NCBI GenBank assembly: GCA_016125425.1
Contig: WGLT01000022.1
Span: 1 to 64,000, forward strand
Source: Alphaproteobacteria bacterium
GTDB lineage: Bacteria; Pseudomonadota; Alphaproteobacteria; Caulobacterales; Parvularculaceae
Reading direction: 5' to 3'
Length of the DNA: 64,000 bases
The notes beneath the pieces are model-generated. The model was not told where the DNA came from and did not search any database. It saw only the letters and a list, made by a program, of their open reading frames with translations. A program made the translations under genes and the position numbers. This document shows, one piece after another, positions 48,666-56,645 of the stretch; position 1 is the first letter of the stretch; the number at the start of each line of letters is the position of its first letter.

Positions 48666-49766
48666 TCAGCGGGGAGAGCGCGCGCATTCTTCAAGAACTG
48701 AAATGACGGCTCTCATATGCTTGTCCGGACCGATGGTGATCCGCAGGAAATCCGGCATGCCGTAATTTGAAAGACCGCGGACGAGCAGTCCGCGCGAGGC
48801 GAGCCGTTGTTCCGCTTCGGCTGCGCTCGCCGGGAAGCCTTTCGGAAAACGCGCCGTCACGAAATTCGTCGCCGACGGAATCGGCTCAAGACCAAGCGCG
48901 GTCAACGCGGCTGAGAGCTGTTCGCGGCCGTGCTCCGCGAAGGCGATCGAGCGCTCGACGAAATCATGGTCCTCGAGCGCGGCCAGCGCCGCGGCCTGCG
49001 CTGGACGCGTCGTGTTGAATGGCGGGCGAATGCGCTCCAGCGCGTCAGCGACGGGCGCAGGAACATAGCCCCATCCTATGCGAAGGGCGGCGAGGCCGTA
49101 TAATTTCGAAAACGTCCGTGTCACAATAATGTTGCCGGCGTTGCGCGCTAGGCTGAGGCCGTCGTCATAATCCGACGCGCCGCGCGCATATTCCGCGTAG
49201 GCGCCGTCGAGCACGAGCAGGATGTCGGACGGAAGGTTCGCATGCAGGCGCCGGATTTCGGAAAATGGCAGGCGCGTTCCCGTCGGATTGGCCGGGTTGG
49301 CGACAAAAACGATGCGCGTGCGCGCATCGACCGCCGCCAAAAGCGCGTCGACGTCGACCGTATGGTTCTTTTCGGGGGTCGACTTCACGTCGCCGCCTGC
49401 GGCGCGCGCTGCGATCGCCCAGGCGGCGAAGCCGTATTCAGGCTGGGCAATCATGTCGCCGGGGCTGAGATAAGCCTGGGCGAGCAACGCGAAAATCTCA
49501 TCCGATCCGCAGCCGAAGACGATGCGCTCGGGCTCCAATTCGAACTTTTCAGCGATCGCCCTCCGAAGGGCGCGCGCCTGCGAGTCGGGATAAAGATGAA
49601 GCTGCGCCGAGCACCGAAGAAAGGCCGACTGGGCGAGGGGGCTGGCGCCAAGGGCGTTTTCGTTCGCCGAAAGCTTGATCGCCTTGGCCCCATCGGGCTT
49701 TGTTGCGCGGCCCGGGCTGTAAGCGGAGATTCCGAGAATGCCGGGCTTGGGCGGCGGGAATGTCAT
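48666..49766 (-). CDS. hisC: Histidinol-phosphate aminotransferase (intact copy)
   Basis: Converts imidazole-acetol phosphate to histidinol phosphate. The 366-residue PLP enzyme keeps all key elements: VANPANPTG (pyridine-ring Asn), LVLDGAYAEY, Lys221 in TFSKLYGLAALRIG (Schiff base, with its following Arg), and LRITIG (carboxylate Arg). It is the last gene of the his operon, and its ATG overlaps the hisIE stop (ATGA). The operon also holds an upstream HisC-like domain lacking these residues (see 52458-54065), so this copy must supply the activity. Confidence 0.94.
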   Translation of the reverse strand: MTFPPPKPGILGISAYSPGRATKPDGAKAIKLSANENALGASPLAQSAFLRCSAQLHLYPDSQARALRRAIAEKFELEPERIVFGCGSDEIFALLAQAYLSPGDMIAQPEYGFAAWAIAARAAGGDVKSTPEKNHTVDVDALLAAVDARTRIVFVANPANPTGTRLPFSEIRRLHANLPSDILLVLDGAYAEYARGASDYDDGLSLARNAGNIIVTRTFSKLYGLAALRIGWGYVPAPVADALERIRPPFNTTRPAQAAALAALEDHDFVERSIAFAEHGREQLSAALTALGLEPIPSATNFVTARFPKGFPASAAEAEQRLASRGLLVRGLSNYGMPDFLRITIGPDKHMRAVISVLEECARSPR

Positions 49767-50407
49767 CGCGTCGCCTCCGTCGCGCGTCGTTCCAGAACCG
49801 CCATCACGTCTTCGAGCGCCGCGCCGCGCGCGCGCAAGAGAACGAGCAAGTGATAGAGCAAATCGGCGGCTTCCTCGCAGAGCTCCTCCTTTTCGCCGGC
49901 AGCGCCTGCGAGCGCCACTTCGAGACCTTCCTCGCCGACCTTTTGCGCAGCGCGCTTTGCGCCGGCGGCGAGAAGCCGCGCCGTATAGCTTTCGCTTGCG
50001 CCCTCGGCGGCGCGGGCGGCGATAACGCGCTCCAGCGCGCCGAGGCGTCCGACTCCGGGCGCGGTCTCTTCCGTGAAGCAGCTTGTCGTTTTTTCATGAC
50101 AGGCCGGGCCCGCCGGATCGACGAGAACGAGAAGGGCGTCGCTGTCGCAATCGGCAAACACCTCCGCCTCGCGCATGACGTCGCCGGAGGTATCGCCCTT
50201 GCGCCAGATTTCATTGCGCGAGCGGCTGAAAAAGACGGCGCGTTTCGTCGCGAGCGTTTCTGCGAGCGATGCTTCGTTCATATGGGCGAGCATCAGAACC
50301 TGGCGCGTCGCGCGGTCCTGCACGACGGCGGGAACGAGGCCGCCGCCTTTCGCCCAGTCGATGCGCCTAATGTCGGCCGCTTTCAGCGGCGCACGTCGAT
50401 TGCGCAT
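49763..50407 (-). CDS. hisIE: Bifunctional PR-AMP cyclohydrolase / PR-ATP pyrophosphatase HisIE
   Basis: Fusion of steps 2 and 3 of histidine synthesis. Residues 1-110 are the HisI part, with [23 protein letters not shown] and the zinc Cys motif [11 protein letters not shown]. Residues 120-214 are the HisE part, with [10 protein letters not shown] and [14 protein letters not shown]. The fusion is common in Enterobacteria and Bacteroidetes, while most alphaproteobacteria keep two genes. Its start lies 25 bases inside hisF and its stop overlaps hisC, so it is tightly coupled in the operon. Confidence 0.95.
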
Positions 50408-51150
50408 GAGATGAGATACTCCTTGAGATCGGAAATGGAGAAGATCGATCGGTGAAATACGCTCGCGGCGAGCGCGCCGCTGACGTCGGCGATCTCGAAA
50501 ACGTCGCGAAAGTGCGTCATCGCGCCCGCGCCGCCCGAAGCGATGAGGGGCGCGCGGGCCACGTCGCGCGCCGCGCTCAATTGCCTGATGTCATATCCGG
50601 CGCGTCGTCCGTCTTCATTCATGCAGTTCAAGACGATTTCGCCGGCGCCGCGATCCTGCGCTTCCTTGATCCAGTCGAGCGTACGCCGGCCGGCCGCGCG
50701 GCTCGCAGCCGGATCGCCGGTATATTGATGAACGAAATAGTCGCCGTCCTCGGCGCGGCTGTCGACGCCGACCACGACGCATTGCGAGCCGAAGCGCGCG
50801 GCCAGCGCGTCGATCAGGCCGGGGTTCTCCAGCGCGGGAGAATTGATGGAGATTTTGTCCGCGCCGCGCTCGAGCCGGCGCGCCGCATCGTCAAGCGAGC
50901 GAATTCCGCCGGCGATGGCGAAGGGAATATCGATCTCACGCGCGACCGCCTCGACCCAGGCGAGATCGACGGGCGCGCCGCGAACGCTCGCGGTGATGTC
51001 GTAGAGGACCAACTCGTCGGCGCCTTCATCACGATAGCGCCGCGCAAGGGGCGCGATCTCGCCGACGACCTCATGGCCTTTGAATTGAACGCCCTTGACG
51101 ACGAGGCCGTCGCGAATGTCGAGACAGGGAATGATTCTACGCGCCGGCAT
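50383..51150 (-). CDS. hisF: Imidazole glycerol phosphate synthase, cyclase subunit HisF
   Basis: Cyclises PRFAR with ammonia from HisH. The 255-residue (beta/alpha)8 barrel has catalytic Asp in [15 protein letters not shown] (near residue 11) and Asp in VGVDSR (near 130), and the phosphate sites GGIRSLDDA and SGGAGAM. The ATG at 51150 overlaps the end of hisA by 14 bases, and its 3' end runs 25 bases into hisIE. Confidence 0.96.
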
Positions 51151-51868
51151 GAATCGCCTCCTCAAGCGACAGACGATTTTCGTAGAGCGCTTTGCCGACA
51201 ATGGCGGCGGCCGCGCCGGCTGAGCGCAACGCTTTGATGTCGTCGAGCGAGGCGACGCCGCCCGAAGCCTGTATGTCGAGATCGGGATAACGCGCCGAGA
51301 CATCGCGAATAAGATCGAAATTCGGCCCGTTAAGCGCGCCATCGCGCGAAATATCCGTAATCAGAACATTGCGGAGTCCCGTTCCGGCGAAAGGCGCGAT
51401 CGCCTCGTCAAGGCGCAACGCCGATAATTCGCGCCAGCCATGAACCGCCACGAACGGCTTATCCTTCTCAATGCGAACATCGAAAGCGAGCGTCAGTCTG
51501 TCGGGACCGAATTCGCCGAGCCAGTCGCGAATCGTCTCCGGCTCGCGCAGGGCCAGGCTGCCGACGACGACGCGGCTGACTCCCGCTGCGAGGAGGCTGC
51601 GGACATGCGCGCGCTTGCGGACGCCGCCTGCGACCTGCAATGAGAGCGCGCTCCCTCGCGCGAGCGCGGCGATGAAATCGTGCTGGAGCGGCGCGCCGGC
51701 TCTCGCGCCGTCAAGGTCGACGACATGGGCCCAATTCGCGCCGGCTTTTTCGAAACCGGCGAGCGCGTCGGCAGGCGCGAGCGGGTAGCGAGTCTGCGCG
51801 CCGAAATCGCCTTGGTAGAGGCGAACGCAGGCGTTTCCCATGAGATCCATCGCGGGCAGTATGATCAT
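51137..51868 (-). CDS. hisA: ProFAR isomerase HisA
   Basis: Phosphoribosylformimino-5-aminoimidazole carboxamide ribotide isomerase, 243 residues, a (beta/alpha)8 barrel. The catalytic Asp is in [19 protein letters not shown] (Asp8) and the second in ISRDGAL. The phosphate loops QVAGGVRK and QASGGVAS are conserved. ATGA overlaps join it to hisH, and a 14-base overlap joins it to hisF. Confidence 0.95.
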
Positions 51869-52461
51869 GACGCGTTCAGAAAGTTGGAGAGAACGCGCGC
51901 GCCGGCGGCGCCTGAGCGCTCAGGATGGAACTGACAGCCGAAACGCCGCCCGTCTTCGACAGCCGCTGAAAACGCCTCGCCATATTCGGCGACGCCGATC
52001 GTCGCCGCGCCGGGCGGAGCGGCGTATCCGTGCACGAAGTAGAAAAAGGCGCCGTCTTCGACTCCCTCGAGCAAGCGCGACCCGGCGCGCGTCTTGCGCA
52101 CTCGGCTCCAGCCCATATGCGGCCATGGCGCGTTTTCGCCGGCGTCGAGCCTTGCGACGCGACCAGGCAACAGGCCCAAACCGGTCGCATCGCCCTCTTC
52201 GGACGCTTCAAAGAGCAGTTGCATGCCGAGGCACAGTCCGAGCAGGGGCGCGCGCGAGCCGCGAAGCGGTTCGGCAAGGCCCCTTTTGCTGAGTTGCTCC
52301 GCCGCATAGGCGGCCGATCCGACGCCAGGAAAAATGAGGCGCTCCGCGCGCGCAATGTCCGCCGGCTCGCGCGCAATATCCGCGCCGGCGCCCAGCCTTT
52401 CGAGGGCGAATATGACGGATGCGAGATTGGCGCATCCGATATCGATGACGGAAACCCTCAT
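51865..52461 (-). CDS. hisH: Imidazole glycerol phosphate synthase, glutaminase subunit HisH
   Basis: Releases ammonia from glutamine for HisF. The 198-residue class I amidotransferase has nucleophile Cys77 in GLCLGMQ and the His179/Glu181 dyad in CQFHPER; PGVGSAA holds the oxyanion strand. Its ATG overlaps the hisCB-fusion stop (ATGA) and its stop overlaps hisA in the same way. Confidence 0.95.
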   Translation of the reverse strand: MRVSVIDIGCANLASVIFALERLGAGADIAREPADIARAERLIFPGVGSAAYAAEQLSKRGLAEPLRGSRAPLLGLCLGMQLLFEASEEGDATGLGLLPGRVARLDAGENAPWPHMGWSRVRKTRAGSRLLEGVEDGAFFYFVHGYAAPPGAATIGVAEYGEAFSAAVEDGRRFGCQFHPERSGAAGARVLSNFLNAS

Positions 52462-54065
52462 GCGAGAACGCCTTTCGTGCTCGGCATGTCGTCGCCTTCA
52501 ACGCGAACCGCCTCGCGCAGCGCGCGGCCGAGCGCCTTGAAGCAGGCCTCTGTCTTGTGGTGGTCGTTCCGGCCGGACGTCGAAATATGCAAGGTCGCGC
52601 CGAGGCTGTCCGCGAAAGAGCGGAACGCGTGCTCGGTCATTTGCGTCGGATAGGCGCCGATCAACGGCGCCTCGAATGCGCCGTCAAAGGATAGAAACGG
52701 GCGCCCGGACAGGTCGAGCGCCACCTCCGCGCGCGCTTCGTCCATCGGCAGGGCGACAGCGAAACGTCTTATTCCGCGCTTGTCGCCAAGCGCCCTGCGC
52801 AGCGTCTCCCCGAAGGCGAGCATGCAGTCTTCAATCGTGTGATGCGCATCGACGTCCACGTCGCCGCTGCAGGACAGGACGAGCGAGAAGCCGCCATGCT
52901 TGGCGATTTGTTCGAGCATGTGGTCGAAGAAGCGGACGCCTGTGGTGATTCTGATTGGCTGCGTATTTTCGAGATCCACCGAAACCGCAATATCCGTCTC
53001 TTTGGTGCGCCGGGCGAGATCTGCGCGCCGCTCCCGGCGCGGAGCGGCGGCGACGCCGAAAGCGTCAAGCGCGAGATCGTTCTGAGAGGGCGTGCCGATC
53101 GTTAGCCGGAGCCCGGCAGGCGCACTGTCAGGCCGCCAGCTCACGCGAACGCCGCGCGCTGCGAGCCGGCGTGCGAGCGCGTCTTTGTCGCTCGCCTCAA
53201 GGAACAGGAAATCGCCGCCGCTTTCACGGATGCTCGCGACGAAAGGCGAGCCTTGAAGAGCGCGCCGCATGCGCGCGCGTTCGGATTTGATTTCGGCGAT
53301 GCGTTTTTGAACGATCGGCGCCTGAACGGGCGACAGCGCCGCGAGCGCGGCGCGAATGGTCGGCGAAGGAAGGGCGGACGCCGGCGAGACCTTGCGCAAG
53401 ACGGCGACGACGCTGGGATCTGCGATGACGGCGGCGCAAGGCGCGCCGGCGAGACCGTAAGCAGACGACAGGCTGCGCAAGACGACGAGATTTTCGACAT
53501 CGCCCGCAAGGCCGGCAAGGCTTTCGGCGTCCGAAAATTCCGCAAAGCTCTCGTCGACCACGATGATCGTATCGGAAAGTCGGGAGCACAGCGCGCGGAT
53601 CGTCTCCGGCGCGATGACGTCGCCGGTAGGGTCGGCCGGCGACGACAGAAGAGTCAGCCGCGCGCGGCGGGCCCTGTCCAAAAAATCCTTACTCTCAAGA
53701 GCCGACTCTTCGACGGACGCGCCCTGAATGATTGCGGCGCGTATGGCAAAATCGGCCGCCGGGGCGGCGATAACGACCAAGTCCCCGGCGGGCCGGCAGA
53801 ATGCGCGCAACAGAAGATCAACGGCGTCCTCAACGCCGCGCGCCGCGAGAATTTTCTCCTCCGAGACGCCGTAAATGGCGGCGAAACGCGATATCAGGGC
53901 CGCTGGCTGGTTTGCGGCGCGACGGTTGAGATCGCCGCCGTCGAGCGGCGGATAGGGGTTTTCGTTTTCATCGAGTCGAATGTCGTCCGGGCCGGCGAGG
54001 CGAGGGCGATGCTCCGGCAGCGCCAAGACTTCCGGGCGCGCAAGGCGTTCTGCGAGAGAGGTCAC
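52458..54065 (-). CDS. hisB: Fusion of a degenerate HisC-like domain with imidazoleglycerol-phosphate dehydratase (HisB)
   Basis: A single 535-codon frame. Residues about 346-535 are a complete IGP dehydratase with all manganese-binding histidine motifs (FDHMLEQIAKHGG, DVDAHHTIEDC, TEHAFRSFADSL, GRNDHHKTEA), starting as free-standing HisB proteins do at ADLARRTKETDI. Residues 1-340 are clearly HisC-like (LDENENPYPP, DPTG, VVDESFAEFS, LSSAYGLAG, LRLTIGTP), but the PLP-binding lysine is Ser201, the ring-binding Asn is Asp145, and the Arg following the lysine motif is lost. The dehydratase should work, and the aminotransferase domain should not. In E. coli the HisB partner is a phosphatase domain instead. 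Both ends show ATGA overlaps. Confidence 0.93.
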   Translation of the reverse strand: MTSLAERLARPEVLALPEHRPRLAGPDDIRLDENENPYPPLDGGDLNRRAANQPAALISRFAAIYGVSEEKILAARGVEDAVDLLLRAFCRPAGDLVVIAAPAADFAIRAAIIQGASVEESALESKDFLDRARRARLTLLSSPADPTGDVIAPETIRALCSRLSDTIIVVDESFAEFSDAESLAGLAGDVENLVVLRSLSSAYGLAGAPCAAVIADPSVVAVLRKVSPASALPSPTIRAALAALSPVQAPIVQKRIAEIKSERARMRRALQGSPFVASIRESGGDFLFLEASDKDALARRLAARGVRVSWRPDSAPAGLRLTIGTPSQNDLALDAFGVAAAPRRERRADLARRTKETDIAVSVDLENTQPIRITTGVRFFDHMLEQIAKHGGFSLVLSCSGDVDVDAHHTIEDCMLAFGETLRRALGDKRGIRRFAVALPMDEARAEVALDLSGRPFLSFDGAFEAPLIGAYPTQMTEHAFRSFADSLGATLHISTSGRNDHHKTEACFKALGRALREAVRVEGDDMPSTKGVLA

Positions 54066-55366
54066 GACGCATCCCCGGATTCGAGGCGAGCGAGCGCCGC
54101 GCGCGCATGCGCTTCCAGACCCTCAAGACGCGCAAGCCGCGCCGCCGCCGGCGCGAGACGGCGCGCAGCCTCGGCGGTCATTTCCTGGATCGCAAATGCG
54201 CGCATGAAGGAAGAGACATTGACCCCGCTCCAGCCGCGCGCCGCGCCGTCTGTCGGCAGCACATGGCTCGGCCCGTTGATGTAATCGCCGAACGCTTCGG
54301 CCGCGCGCGCGCCGCAAAAGATCGCGCCCGCCGTGGCGATCTCGCCGGCGAGCGCGCCTGGATCGCGGACATGAAGAGCGAGGTGTTCGGGCGCGTACAA
54401 ATTGGCGGCGCTCGCCGCGTCGGACAAATCGTCGACGATGATGAGGCGGGCGCTCTCAAGCGCGGCGCGCGCTATCGGCGCGCGCGGCAAATCGGCGAGT
54501 TGATCTTCAATGTCAGCGGCGACTGCATTGGCCAATCGCTCATCAGTACACGCAAAAAGAACTTGCGCGTCGCGATCGTGCTCGGCCTGGCTTAAAAGGT
54601 CCGCGGCGACAAGCGCGGGGTCCGCCGAATCGTCGGCGATGACGAACAGCTCCGAAGGCCCGGCGGGCAAGTCGATTGCAGGTCCGCCGGGAAGGCTCGC
54701 CGCATATGTCTTCGCAGCGGCGACAAAGGCGTTGCCGGGGCCGAAGATTTTGGCGACTGGCGGGATGGTTTCGGTGCCCAATGCGAGCGCGGCGACAGCC
54801 TGTGCGCCGCCGAGAAGTCGAAGCTCCGGCAAACCGCAGAGCGAAGCGGCGATGATCATCGCGGGCGCAACCCCGTTTTCGCCCGAGGGCGGGGTCACAG
54901 CTGCGATGTCGCAGACGCCGGCGACGCGCGCAGGAATCGCCAGCATTAGCAGGCTGGAGATGAGCGGCGCCGATCCTCCAGGAACGTAGAGCCCGACCCG
55001 TTCCAGAGGGCGATACACGCATCGGCATGTGACGCCGGGCGCGGTTTCGACGGCGCAGTCTGCGGGGCGCGTTCCGCGATGATAGGCGATAATTGTCTCG
55101 GCGGCCTGTTCGAGCGCAGCGATATCGCGCGCATCAAGCGCGCCGCGCGCGGCATTGACCGTCTCATCGTCGATTACGACGACGTCCGGCGCTTTGCCGT
55201 CGAATTCGAGCGAGAAATCGCGCAGGGCGGCGTCGCCTCGCTCGGCTACGCCCGCGAAGACGCGCTCGACCGTTTTGATAACGCGCGGGTCAGCGCCGCG
55301 GGCCGGCCGCGCAAGCGCGCGCCTGCGCTCCCGGTCATCGAGGTTCGCCCAGAATATCCGCTCCAC
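54062..55366 (-). CDS. hisD: Histidinol dehydrogenase
   Basis: Oxidises histidinol to histidine in two NAD-dependent steps. At 434 residues it is of normal length. Zinc ligands are seen in SQAEHD (Gln/His), FGDYINGPSHVLPT (Asp) and GLEAHARA (His), and the general-base region in LYAPEHLALHV. The VPGGSAPLISSLLMLAIPA loop is present. It begins 13 bases after hisG and overlaps the hisC-hisB fusion by ATGA. Confidence 0.96.
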   Translation of the reverse strand: MERIFWANLDDRERRRALARPARGADPRVIKTVERVFAGVAERGDAALRDFSLEFDGKAPDVVVIDDETVNAARGALDARDIAALEQAAETIIAYHRGTRPADCAVETAPGVTCRCVYRPLERVGLYVPGGSAPLISSLLMLAIPARVAGVCDIAAVTPPSGENGVAPAMIIAASLCGLPELRLLGGAQAVAALALGTETIPPVAKIFGPGNAFVAAAKTYAASLPGGPAIDLPAGPSELFVIADDSADPALVAADLLSQAEHDRDAQVLFACTDERLANAVAADIEDQLADLPRAPIARAALESARLIIVDDLSDAASAANLYAPEHLALHVRDPGALAGEIATAGAIFCGARAAEAFGDYINGPSHVLPTDGAARGWSGVNVSSFMRAFAIQEMTAEAARRLAPAAARLARLEGLEAHARAALARLESGDAS

Positions 55367-55379
55367 CGCGCCGCCTCCT

Positions 55380-56270
55380 TCAGATCATCATCTTTTCGAT
55401 CGGCACGAGGAGGATCGAAGAGGCGCCGGCGCGCTTCAGCCGCTCCAGCGTCTCCCAGAAGACGGACTCCTTGCAGACGGCGTGCACGGCCACGGCGCCC
55501 GGCCGGCCTGCGAGAGGCACAACAGTCGGCGCTTCCGCGCCCGGCAGAATCTCCGCGATTTCGTCAAGCGCGCTCTCGGGCGCATTCATCATGATATATT
55601 TCGATCCGCGGCTCGCGAGCACGCCGTCAACGCGGGTCAAGAACCGCGCGCGCACTTCGAGCAGCCGGTCATTGAGAGGCCAGCCGCCCTGAACCAGCAC
55701 GGCCTCGCTGTCGAGAACGGTTTCGACCGCGCGCAGTCCGTTGGCGTCGAGCGTCGCGCCCGTCGAAACGAGATCGCAAATCGCCGTCGCAATATGCAGT
55801 CGCGGCGCGACCTCGACTGAGCCGCTCATTTCGACGATCTCGGCGCGAACGCCTTTCTCATCGAGATAGCGGCGCAGGATGCCCGGATGCGAACTTGCGA
55901 TGCGCGCGCCTTCAAGATCGCGGAGACCGCCATATTCGACGTTTTCAGGCACGGCGATCTTCAGGGCGCACCGGCCGAATCCCAGTTCGGCGATCACGTC
56001 CGGCGCATCGATCCTGTCGGTGAGCCGGGCCTCTTCAAGCGCATTGCGGCCGACGATGCCGAGATCGCAAACGCCCTTCGCGACGAAATTCGCGATGTCG
56101 TCGTCGCGCACCCGCAAGACGTCGATCGGCGCGTCCTCGACCCGCAGGAGCAGATCGTCCTTGCCGCGGCGGAATCTGAGGCCCGTCTGCTCGATCAGTT
56201 GAAGGCTTGCTTCGGCGAGCCGGCCTTTGCTCTGGACCGCAATCCTGAGCCGTTTTTCGCGAGGCTCCAT
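55380..56270 (-). CDS. hisG: ATP phosphoribosyltransferase, long form HisG
   Basis: First committed enzyme of histidine synthesis. At 296 residues it is the long form: a catalytic part (IAVQSKGRLAEAS, DIANFVAKGVCDLGIVG, ATAICDLVSTGATLDANGL) followed by a C-terminal ACT-like regulatory domain (about 216-296, with TVVPLAGRPGAVAVHAVCKE) that mediates histidine feedback. Many alphaproteobacteria instead use short HisG with HisZ, and no hisZ is present. It begins 5 bases after the TrpR-like gene. Confidence 0.95.
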   Translation of the reverse strand: MEPREKRLRIAVQSKGRLAEASLQLIEQTGLRFRRGKDDLLLRVEDAPIDVLRVRDDDIANFVAKGVCDLGIVGRNALEEARLTDRIDAPDVIAELGFGRCALKIAVPENVEYGGLRDLEGARIASSHPGILRRYLDEKGVRAEIVEMSGSVEVAPRLHIATAICDLVSTGATLDANGLRAVETVLDSEAVLVQGGWPLNDRLLEVRARFLTRVDGVLASRGSKYIMMNAPESALDEIAEILPGAEAPTVVPLAGRPGAVAVHAVCKESVFWETLERLKRAGASSILLVPIEKMMI

Positions 56271-56275
56271 GGGGC

Positions 56276-56626
56276 TTACTCCTTCGCTCGATCGAGAACG
56301 AGGCGATAGCCTTCGTGCGGTTCTTCTTTGAGAAAGCGCGCGACCCGAACAATCGTCGCCGTCGAGACGCCGGTCTCAGCGCTGATCTCACGATAGGATA
56401 GATCGCCTTCGTCCAGGAGGCGCGCAACCTGCCAGCGTTCGGCGAGCGCCTTGATTTCCCCCGGCGTGCACAGATCGGTCAGGAAACGGCGCGCTTCGTC
56501 CTCGGTCTTCAGACACAGCAGGGCGCGCAGGAGGGCGCTTGTCGGATCTTCGGACAGCGGTCCGGCCGCCGCCTTGGTCGGGGCGGGAGATTTGCGGCGG
56601 GCGGCGCGTTGAGCGGCGGCGGGCAT
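56276..56626 (-). CDS. TrpR-related (YerC/YecD family) putative regulator of the his operon
   Basis: A 116-residue protein. After an Ala/Lys-rich N-terminus (about 35 residues) comes a TrpR-like domain: LLRALLCLKTEDEARRFLTD, CTPGEIKALAERWQVARLL, then the helix-turn-helix SYREISAETGVSTATIVRVARFL. The family is called YerC/YecD TrpR-related. It is the first gene of the his unit, 5 bases before hisG, which makes it a candidate local regulator. The ATG at 56626 follows GGAG; an upstream TTG is possible. Confidence 0.8.
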   Translation of the reverse strand: MPAAAQRAARRKSPAPTKAAAGPLSEDPTSALLRALLCLKTEDEARRFLTDLCTPGEIKALAERWQVARLLDEGDLSYREISAETGVSTATIVRVARFLKEEPHEGYRLVLDRAKE

Positions 56627-56645
56627 GGCGGCTCCGGTCAATATC

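Follow-up and report, generated by a model that had tools for sequence, protein, structure and literature searches.

Why should a histidine operon keep an aminotransferase domain that has lost its cofactor site, fused to a dehydratase that looks intact? The question is raised by a locus in a 64,000-nucleotide stretch of DNA (the window: contig WGLT01000022.1 of assembly GCA_016125425.1, Parvularculaceae, Caulobacterales), in which the IGP dehydratase (IGPD) HisB is encoded as the C-terminal part of a longer protein. An earlier reading of the sequence (the original prediction) took the N-terminal part for a dead HisC-like domain.

Architecture of the locus

The operon follows the order TrpR-like regulator, hisG, hisD, fusion, hisH, hisA, hisF, hisIE, hisC (Table 1). 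The fusion overlaps both of its neighbours: its GTG start and the hisD stop share the letters GTGA, and its stop and the hisH start share ATGA. Its reading frame runs without interruption from the end of hisD into HisB. The aminotransferase-like N-terminus that had been proposed is borne out by Pfam, TIGR01141 and structure matches. Pfam finds Aminotran_1_2 at residues 41-335 (98 bits; cut-off 19.7) and IGPD at 375-516 (194.4 bits), and the NCBIfam hisC model TIGR01141 matches the N-terminal domain with 177.5 bits (178.9 in a genome-wide search), below its curated cut-off of 276.55. A histidinol-phosphate phosphatase was rejected for this domain, as Pfam and structure both indicate an aminotransferase fold.

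Table 1. Features of the his locus in window coordinates; residues in the fusion are compared with E. coli HisC, whose numbering is given for reference.
Feature	Position	Strand	Remarks
TrpR-family regulator gene heading the operon (HisR-like)	56276..56641	(-)	
hisG	55380..56270	(-)	
hisD	54062..55366	(-)	
Fusion gene, pseudo-HisC + HisB (IGP dehydratase)	52458..54065	(-)	535 aa
Pseudo-HisC domain	53037..54065	(-)	residues 1-343; fold match from residue 42
Arg48 replacing Tyr55	53922..53924	(-)	alignment and index check
Ala104 replacing Tyr/Phe110	53754..53756	(-)	alignment and index check
Asp145 replacing Asn157	53631..53633	(-)	alignment and index check
Phe174 replacing Tyr187	53544..53546	(-)	alignment and index check
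Ser201 replacing PLP lysine Lys214	53463..53465	(-)	alignment and index check
Pro209 replacing Arg222	53439..53441	(-)	alignment and index check
IGP dehydratase (HisB) domain	52461..53036	(-)	residues 344-535
hisH	51865..52461	(-)	
hisA	51137..51868	(-)	sequence motifs and place; homologues in the same place in relatives
hisF	50383..51150	(-)	start set by eye at a motif; homologues in the same place in relatives
hisIE	49763..50407	(-)	homology to relatives' operons
Intact HisC (Lys221), operon tail	48666..49766	(-)	presumed active aminotransferase

Structure prediction gave a confident AlphaFold2 single-chain model of the fusion (mean pLDDT 89.2, pTM 0.87, residues 21-40 weak), which contains the full HisC fold from residue 42 (Z 36.3 and 1.9 A over 298 residues with HisC 7szp) and an IGPD part that is normal in the prediction (Z 29.1 with 4mu0). 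The best solved relatives of the N-terminal domain, 7szp and 1fg3, place it with HisC of the E. coli type. It is also 48% identical to the N-terminal domain of the live fusion of genome G009, the nearest fusion to that of the window (56% identity over the whole length). By descent and fold, the domain belongs to the HisC family.

The HisB domain looks intact, as had been stated. Residues D381/H382, H408/H409/E412, H479 and H502/H503/E506, which we take to be its metal ligands, occupy columns that are invariant across 25 aligned fusions. Among NCBIfam models it is best matched by PRK05446, in the HisB half of that model (residues 164-355), and the alignment to the HisNB model is confined to residues 343-534 of the fusion.

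The gene at the head of the operon belongs to a family that also heads many related his operons. HisR of the TrpR family has been described, Caulobacterales included, in PMC9413887, and the proteobacterial consensus for its operator given there has no match in the window at three or fewer mismatches.

Loss of the cofactor site

Index checks confirmed the three residues named in the original prediction, namely Ser201, Asp145 and the lost arginine (Pro209), and the same table of residues shows that Tyr55, Tyr110 and Tyr187 are likewise lost. HisC of the E. coli type (1fg3/1gex; Klebsiella 7szp) shares the fold over residues 42-339 (Z 35-36, 30% identity) and keeps Lys214, Asn157, Tyr110, Tyr187, Tyr55 and Arg222, whereas the window replaces all six, in a chain fused to HisB. 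We assume that Arg222 contacts the PLP phosphate, that the Tyr or Phe at position 110 stacks on the ring, and that Tyr55 is donated across the HisC dimer. Asp184, Ser213, Arg335 and the N-terminal LDENENP motif are retained.

Judged by its residues, the loss in the window is aimed at the cofactor site. Among positions invariant in live fusions and E. coli HisC, 7/9 of those that we presume to be PLP contacts are lost, against 19/64 of the others (p=0.008). The domain falls short of an active HisC in the lysine, in other PLP contacts and in its TIGR01141 score, and these substitutions support the view that PLP chemistry by the usual mechanism would be impossible for it.

Some sugar aminotransferase relatives bind PMP with a His in place of the Lys, and the fold and Asp184 are kept here, so that new chemistry, or PMP binding without the lysine, might be imagined. 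We consider this very improbable, given that Asn157, Tyr110, Tyr187 and Arg222 were lost with the lysine in the window, and that the lysine site of 40 dead domains from the order holds Leu, Ser, Tyr, Phe, Ala, Ile, Gln, Met or a gap, with no common substitute. An assembly or sequencing error in a single metagenome-type genome, here in 31 contigs, is scarcely credible. As many as 26/73 invariant positions are changed in an open frame with the fold intact, which means that the window copy is not a simple sequencing error, and 39 other dead loci occur in other genomes.

Live, dead and reduced relatives

Of 398 genomes in the order to which the window belongs, 172 encode a HisB of this type at E <= 1e-50; a few lie close to that limit and may have an ordinary HisB. 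The 121 loci examined are the window and 120 of the loci found in this way. Alignment to E. coli HisC divides them into 24 live fusions, 40 that are dead but HisC-like, 27 with a reduced N-terminal part of 182-219 aa (stubs), 29 HisD-HisB fusions and one cut by a contig end. HisB is found behind HisC, pseudo-HisC, a stub or HisD in 120/121, the exception being the locus that is cut.

Live fusions keep Lys214, Tyr55, Phe110, Asp184, Tyr187, Ser213 and Arg222 in 24/24 cases and Asn157 in 23/24. Among the dead domains, Lys214, Asn157 and an aromatic residue at 110 are each present in 0/40, Tyr187 in 6/40, Tyr55 in 18/40, Arg222 in 25/40, Ser213 in 29/40, Arg335 in 33/40 and Asp184 in 39/40. The frequent retention of the last four, together with that of Tyr55 in the Brevundimonas-like group and of Arg335, Ser213 and LDENENP in the window, would suit a ligand sensor, in which a pocket free of PLP takes up imidazole-acetol phosphate, histidinol phosphate or phosphate and so regulates IGPD. 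Such a function seems improbable to us, since Tyr20, Tyr55, Arg222 and Arg322 are all lost in the window and the pocket region is absent from the stubs.

The original prediction would have been contradicted by lysine-bearing homologues in the clade, and here it stands in part. The nearest homologues of the window, in G009, G027, G021 and G029, carry the lysine; thus, the domain is not a pseudoenzyme throughout the clade. The window copy itself is, by its sequence, dead through a change of its own. In a wider contig search, from which 80 loci were kept, the lysine is found in four loci labelled as proteobacterial (L002-L005) and in 13 from Bacteroidota/Balneolota; the Brevundimonas loci L006-L010 lack it, as do L012, L013 and L025. 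L013 is labelled Hydrogenophilaceae and lies at zero distance from the alphaproteobacterial L150; it is probably a mislabelled metagenome bin.

The N-terminal domain forms a size series of ~355 aa, ~280, ~200 and 0. The model of a shrunken Brevundimonas domain still has the HisC fold (Z 28.3 over 264 residues). Against a HisC profile built from dead and live domains, the stubs match with a probability of 95.4% (21 stubs) or 96.6% (all 26), over the C-terminal half only; they lack the central PLP half, pocket region included. The match is weak with a profile from live fusions alone (6.4% and 33.8%), and four g15 stubs by themselves reach only 16.2% with the HisC profile, so that their descent from HisC is putative. 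Seven control profiles gave at most 1.7% with the short N-terminal domains of family f5, and an origin of these from a phosphatase or another his protein was rejected in view of the 95.4% for HisC. At the end of the series are the 29 HisD-HisB fusions, which come from three genera and are in frame, with 4-8 aa between the domains (e.g. L126, L127, L128, L193). The frame is open over the whole HisD in 27/29 of them; one of the others has masked bases and stops, and one meets a contig end.

Supply of the aminotransferase

The intact HisC that had been reported at the end of the operon has its lysine (Lys221, confirmed by index) and scores 295.6 bits with TIGR01141, above the cut-off. The proposed duplication of hisC inside the operon was not supported. 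The tail HisC shares only 28.8% identity with the dead domain, against 43-60% with 34 HisC proteins of related genomes that stand alone or close an operon, and the dead domain is of the E. coli type. A local duplication was rejected on these grounds, and the tail HisC looks like a replacement. In a HisC tree, the operon-tail HisC of the window, G004, G005 and genus g22 split from separately placed HisC (99, starred). The neighbours of the window differ between this tree and the operon tree, a conflict that suggests either transfer or differential loss.

A search with TIGR01141 (E <= 1e-45) was made in 60 genomes, selected so that the classes of locus were represented; weaker aminotransferase matches occur in most genomes, and an only HisC is here an only strong match. 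In 22/60 genomes, a live fusion is the only such match, and in 5/60 (G027, G065, G073, G150, G240) a live fusion occurs with a separate HisC. Where the fused HisC is dead, reduced to a stub or absent, a separate HisC is found in 33/33 genomes, that of G004 with 275.6 bits, just under the cut-off of TIGR01141. The rule that a dead domain means a separate HisC has a Fisher p of 5.7e-12 with kinship ignored; with kinship allowed for, there are only 3 independent live/not-live pairs, and 0.05 is out of reach. G027, with both a fusion and a separate HisC, has already lost Asn157 (Ser).

A live partner in the same operon also invites an analogy. HisC forms dimers whose active sites are shared between the subunits, and in serine palmitoyltransferase LCB1, a protein of fold type I, lacks the PLP lysine and is kept beside a live paralogue. 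The dead domains keep the fold, and by analogy with LCB1-LCB2 the pseudo-HisC could pair with the live HisC, tie IGPD to the next enzyme and let imidazole-acetol phosphate be passed along. LCB1 is, however, a separate subunit of a live enzyme, whereas the dead domain of the window shares a chain with the enzyme that acts one step earlier. The low identity between the two HisC sequences of the window also speaks against such a heterodimer, as do the Arg in place of the cross-dimer Tyr55 (kept in fewer than half of the dead domains), the lack of a HisC in the examined downstream stretch of 28/40 dead loci and the loss of the central PLP half from the stubs. We therefore give it little credence.

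History of the operon

A tree of HisB, HisH, HisA, HisF and HisIE (62 rows), in which gain and loss are not told apart, groups the window operon with those of the live G009 and G027 (SH-aLRT 100, starred). The transition between live and not live requires 4 changes on it, of which 3 are forced by starred branches and the window is one. These changes are read as losses because regain of a whole PLP site is implausible. HisD-HisB likewise requires 4 changes, 3 of them forced by starred branches. Live and decayed forms also meet within groups: g11 has one live genome (G150) and 20 others examined that are dead, and g34 has one live (G240) and one stub (G168).

The window's genus mates G004 and G005 (L116, L117) lie among the dead operons of family f4. 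Their his operon, with a shrunken pseudo-HisC, is on another branch than that of the window, which suggests that entire his operons have been exchanged between members of the order. Three further genus mates (G002, G003 and G007, the last 98% complete) have no match to the whole fusion, HisB included, at E <= 0.001, and are perhaps histidine auxotrophs.

Constraint and a possible role of the dead domain

Among dead and stub loci, 57/65 are open from the end of hisD to HisB and the other 8 are open for 300-344 codons; both other frames are broken by stops in 65/65. For close pairs chosen by eye from related dead and stub groups (the window is without a close relative), pooled pN/pS of the domain is 0.244 in dead g11 (6 pairs; HisB 0.063), 0.312 in dead g50/f4 (4 pairs; HisB 0.123) and 0.314 in 5 stub pairs (HisB 0.068). 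Live pairs were discarded as a control (0.236 for the N-terminal domain, 0.153 for HisB), as their silent sites are saturated and the values are not comparable. The open frames and pN/pS of 0.24-0.31 indicate that the sequence of the dead and reduced domains in these related groups is constrained; it appears to matter, if less than before.

This constraint bears on one alternative, a neutral relic without a role that is on its way out and persists as an in-frame deletion up to HisB is rare. Such a relic would fit the size series, the removal of the domain in HisD-HisB and its pace of change: median dN of the domain relative to HisB is 3.0-3.4 in dead groups and 3.8-6.8 in stubs, against 1.8-2.0 in live groups. 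The pN/pS values of the three pooled sets are, however, far from 1, and of the 73 live-invariant positions, 34 are conserved in 90% or more of the 20 sequences from the Brevundimonas-like group. We regard a neutral relic as unlikely, if worth keeping in mind.

The reading towards which we lean, at somewhat better than even, is that the pseudo-HisC is kept as a structural N-terminal partner of HisB after HisC was replaced, and is slowly eroding. The order of events that we infer would begin with a bifunctional HisC-HisB ancestor, which made imidazole-acetol phosphate and then transaminated it. In the window lineage, transamination would have passed to another HisC, encoded on its own at the end of the operon, and the fused HisC domain would then have lost the PLP lysine and most PLP contacts. 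Once relieved, it would have been kept since HisB of this type would never be made without a partner at its N-terminus. Production of the pseudo-HisC would continue, as translation yields HisB only as the C-terminal half of the same chain, and the domain would most probably serve as a non-catalytic structural partner that helps IGPD to fold or assemble, as well as coupling HisB translation to hisD.

Residues 316-362 of the window fusion contain no ATG, GTG or TTG; thus, there is no start just before HisB in the window. In relatives, a possible start codon lies near the HisB boundary in 33/38 dead and 25/27 stub loci, so a free HisB could be made there, which counts against the structural reading. 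So does the fact that HisB of other lineages manages without any fused partner, and the 29 HisD-HisB loci show that the domain is not indispensable. The N-terminal domain of the window has also changed faster than those of its sisters (distance to G021 of 1.19 versus 0.87 for G009; in HisB, 0.42 versus 0.46), as would be expected of relaxation too.

A wider form of the structural reading, plausible but somewhat short of probable, is that the HisC part of HisC-HisB turned several times independently into an obligate, non-catalytic assembly domain for IGPD. After relief by another HisC, the PLP core would have been mutated and cut and the C-terminal half adjoining HisB kept, with HisD replacing the N-terminal partner in some lineages and so creating a new HisD-HisB enzyme; the window, at full length and freshly dead, would be the earliest stage. 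If so, one operon place in one order would hold a series from a working half through a dead scaffold and a stub to nothing, and its live and dead sisters would let one ask what keeps a pseudoenzyme domain after catalysis is gone.

Relation to known histidine fusions

The original prediction knew of no standard HisC-HisB architecture. This agrees with the literature searched, in which no HisC-HisB or HisD-HisB fusion was found (most subscription papers lay outside the search, and some matches were judged by title), nor a decay series of HisC-HisB. Two matches to hisCB were set aside as gene lists, hisCBHAFI and hisCBHAF. In genomes, however, the fusion is common, with the 24 live fusions among the 121 loci of the order and those of the 13 Bacteroidota/Balneolota loci. 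Live HisC-HisB fusions, in the same order and in Bacteroidota, have the domain order and operon place of the window, but retain the lysine and other PLP contacts that the window does not. Histidine synthesis serves as a model for gene fusion, and HisC-HisB and HisD-HisB would extend its list of known fusions. Where a genome owes its HisC annotation to such a fusion, that annotation may have to be checked again.

The HisNB of gammaproteobacteria has a HisB part of the same type and the same operon order, hisG-D-x-B-H-A-F-IE. Its N-terminal partner is a HAD phosphatase, whereas that of the window is a relic of HisC. PMC8305728 reports hisNB in Bacteroidetes and, for Balneolota, a short N-terminal domain that is left unexplained. 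A Balneolales HisB in our set (L042:1985-2875) has an N-terminal part of ~107 aa without a HisC match, which may be that domain. In the window genome, a HisN of the IMPase type is encoded elsewhere (G000:C10; 278.6 bits, cut-off 275.15).
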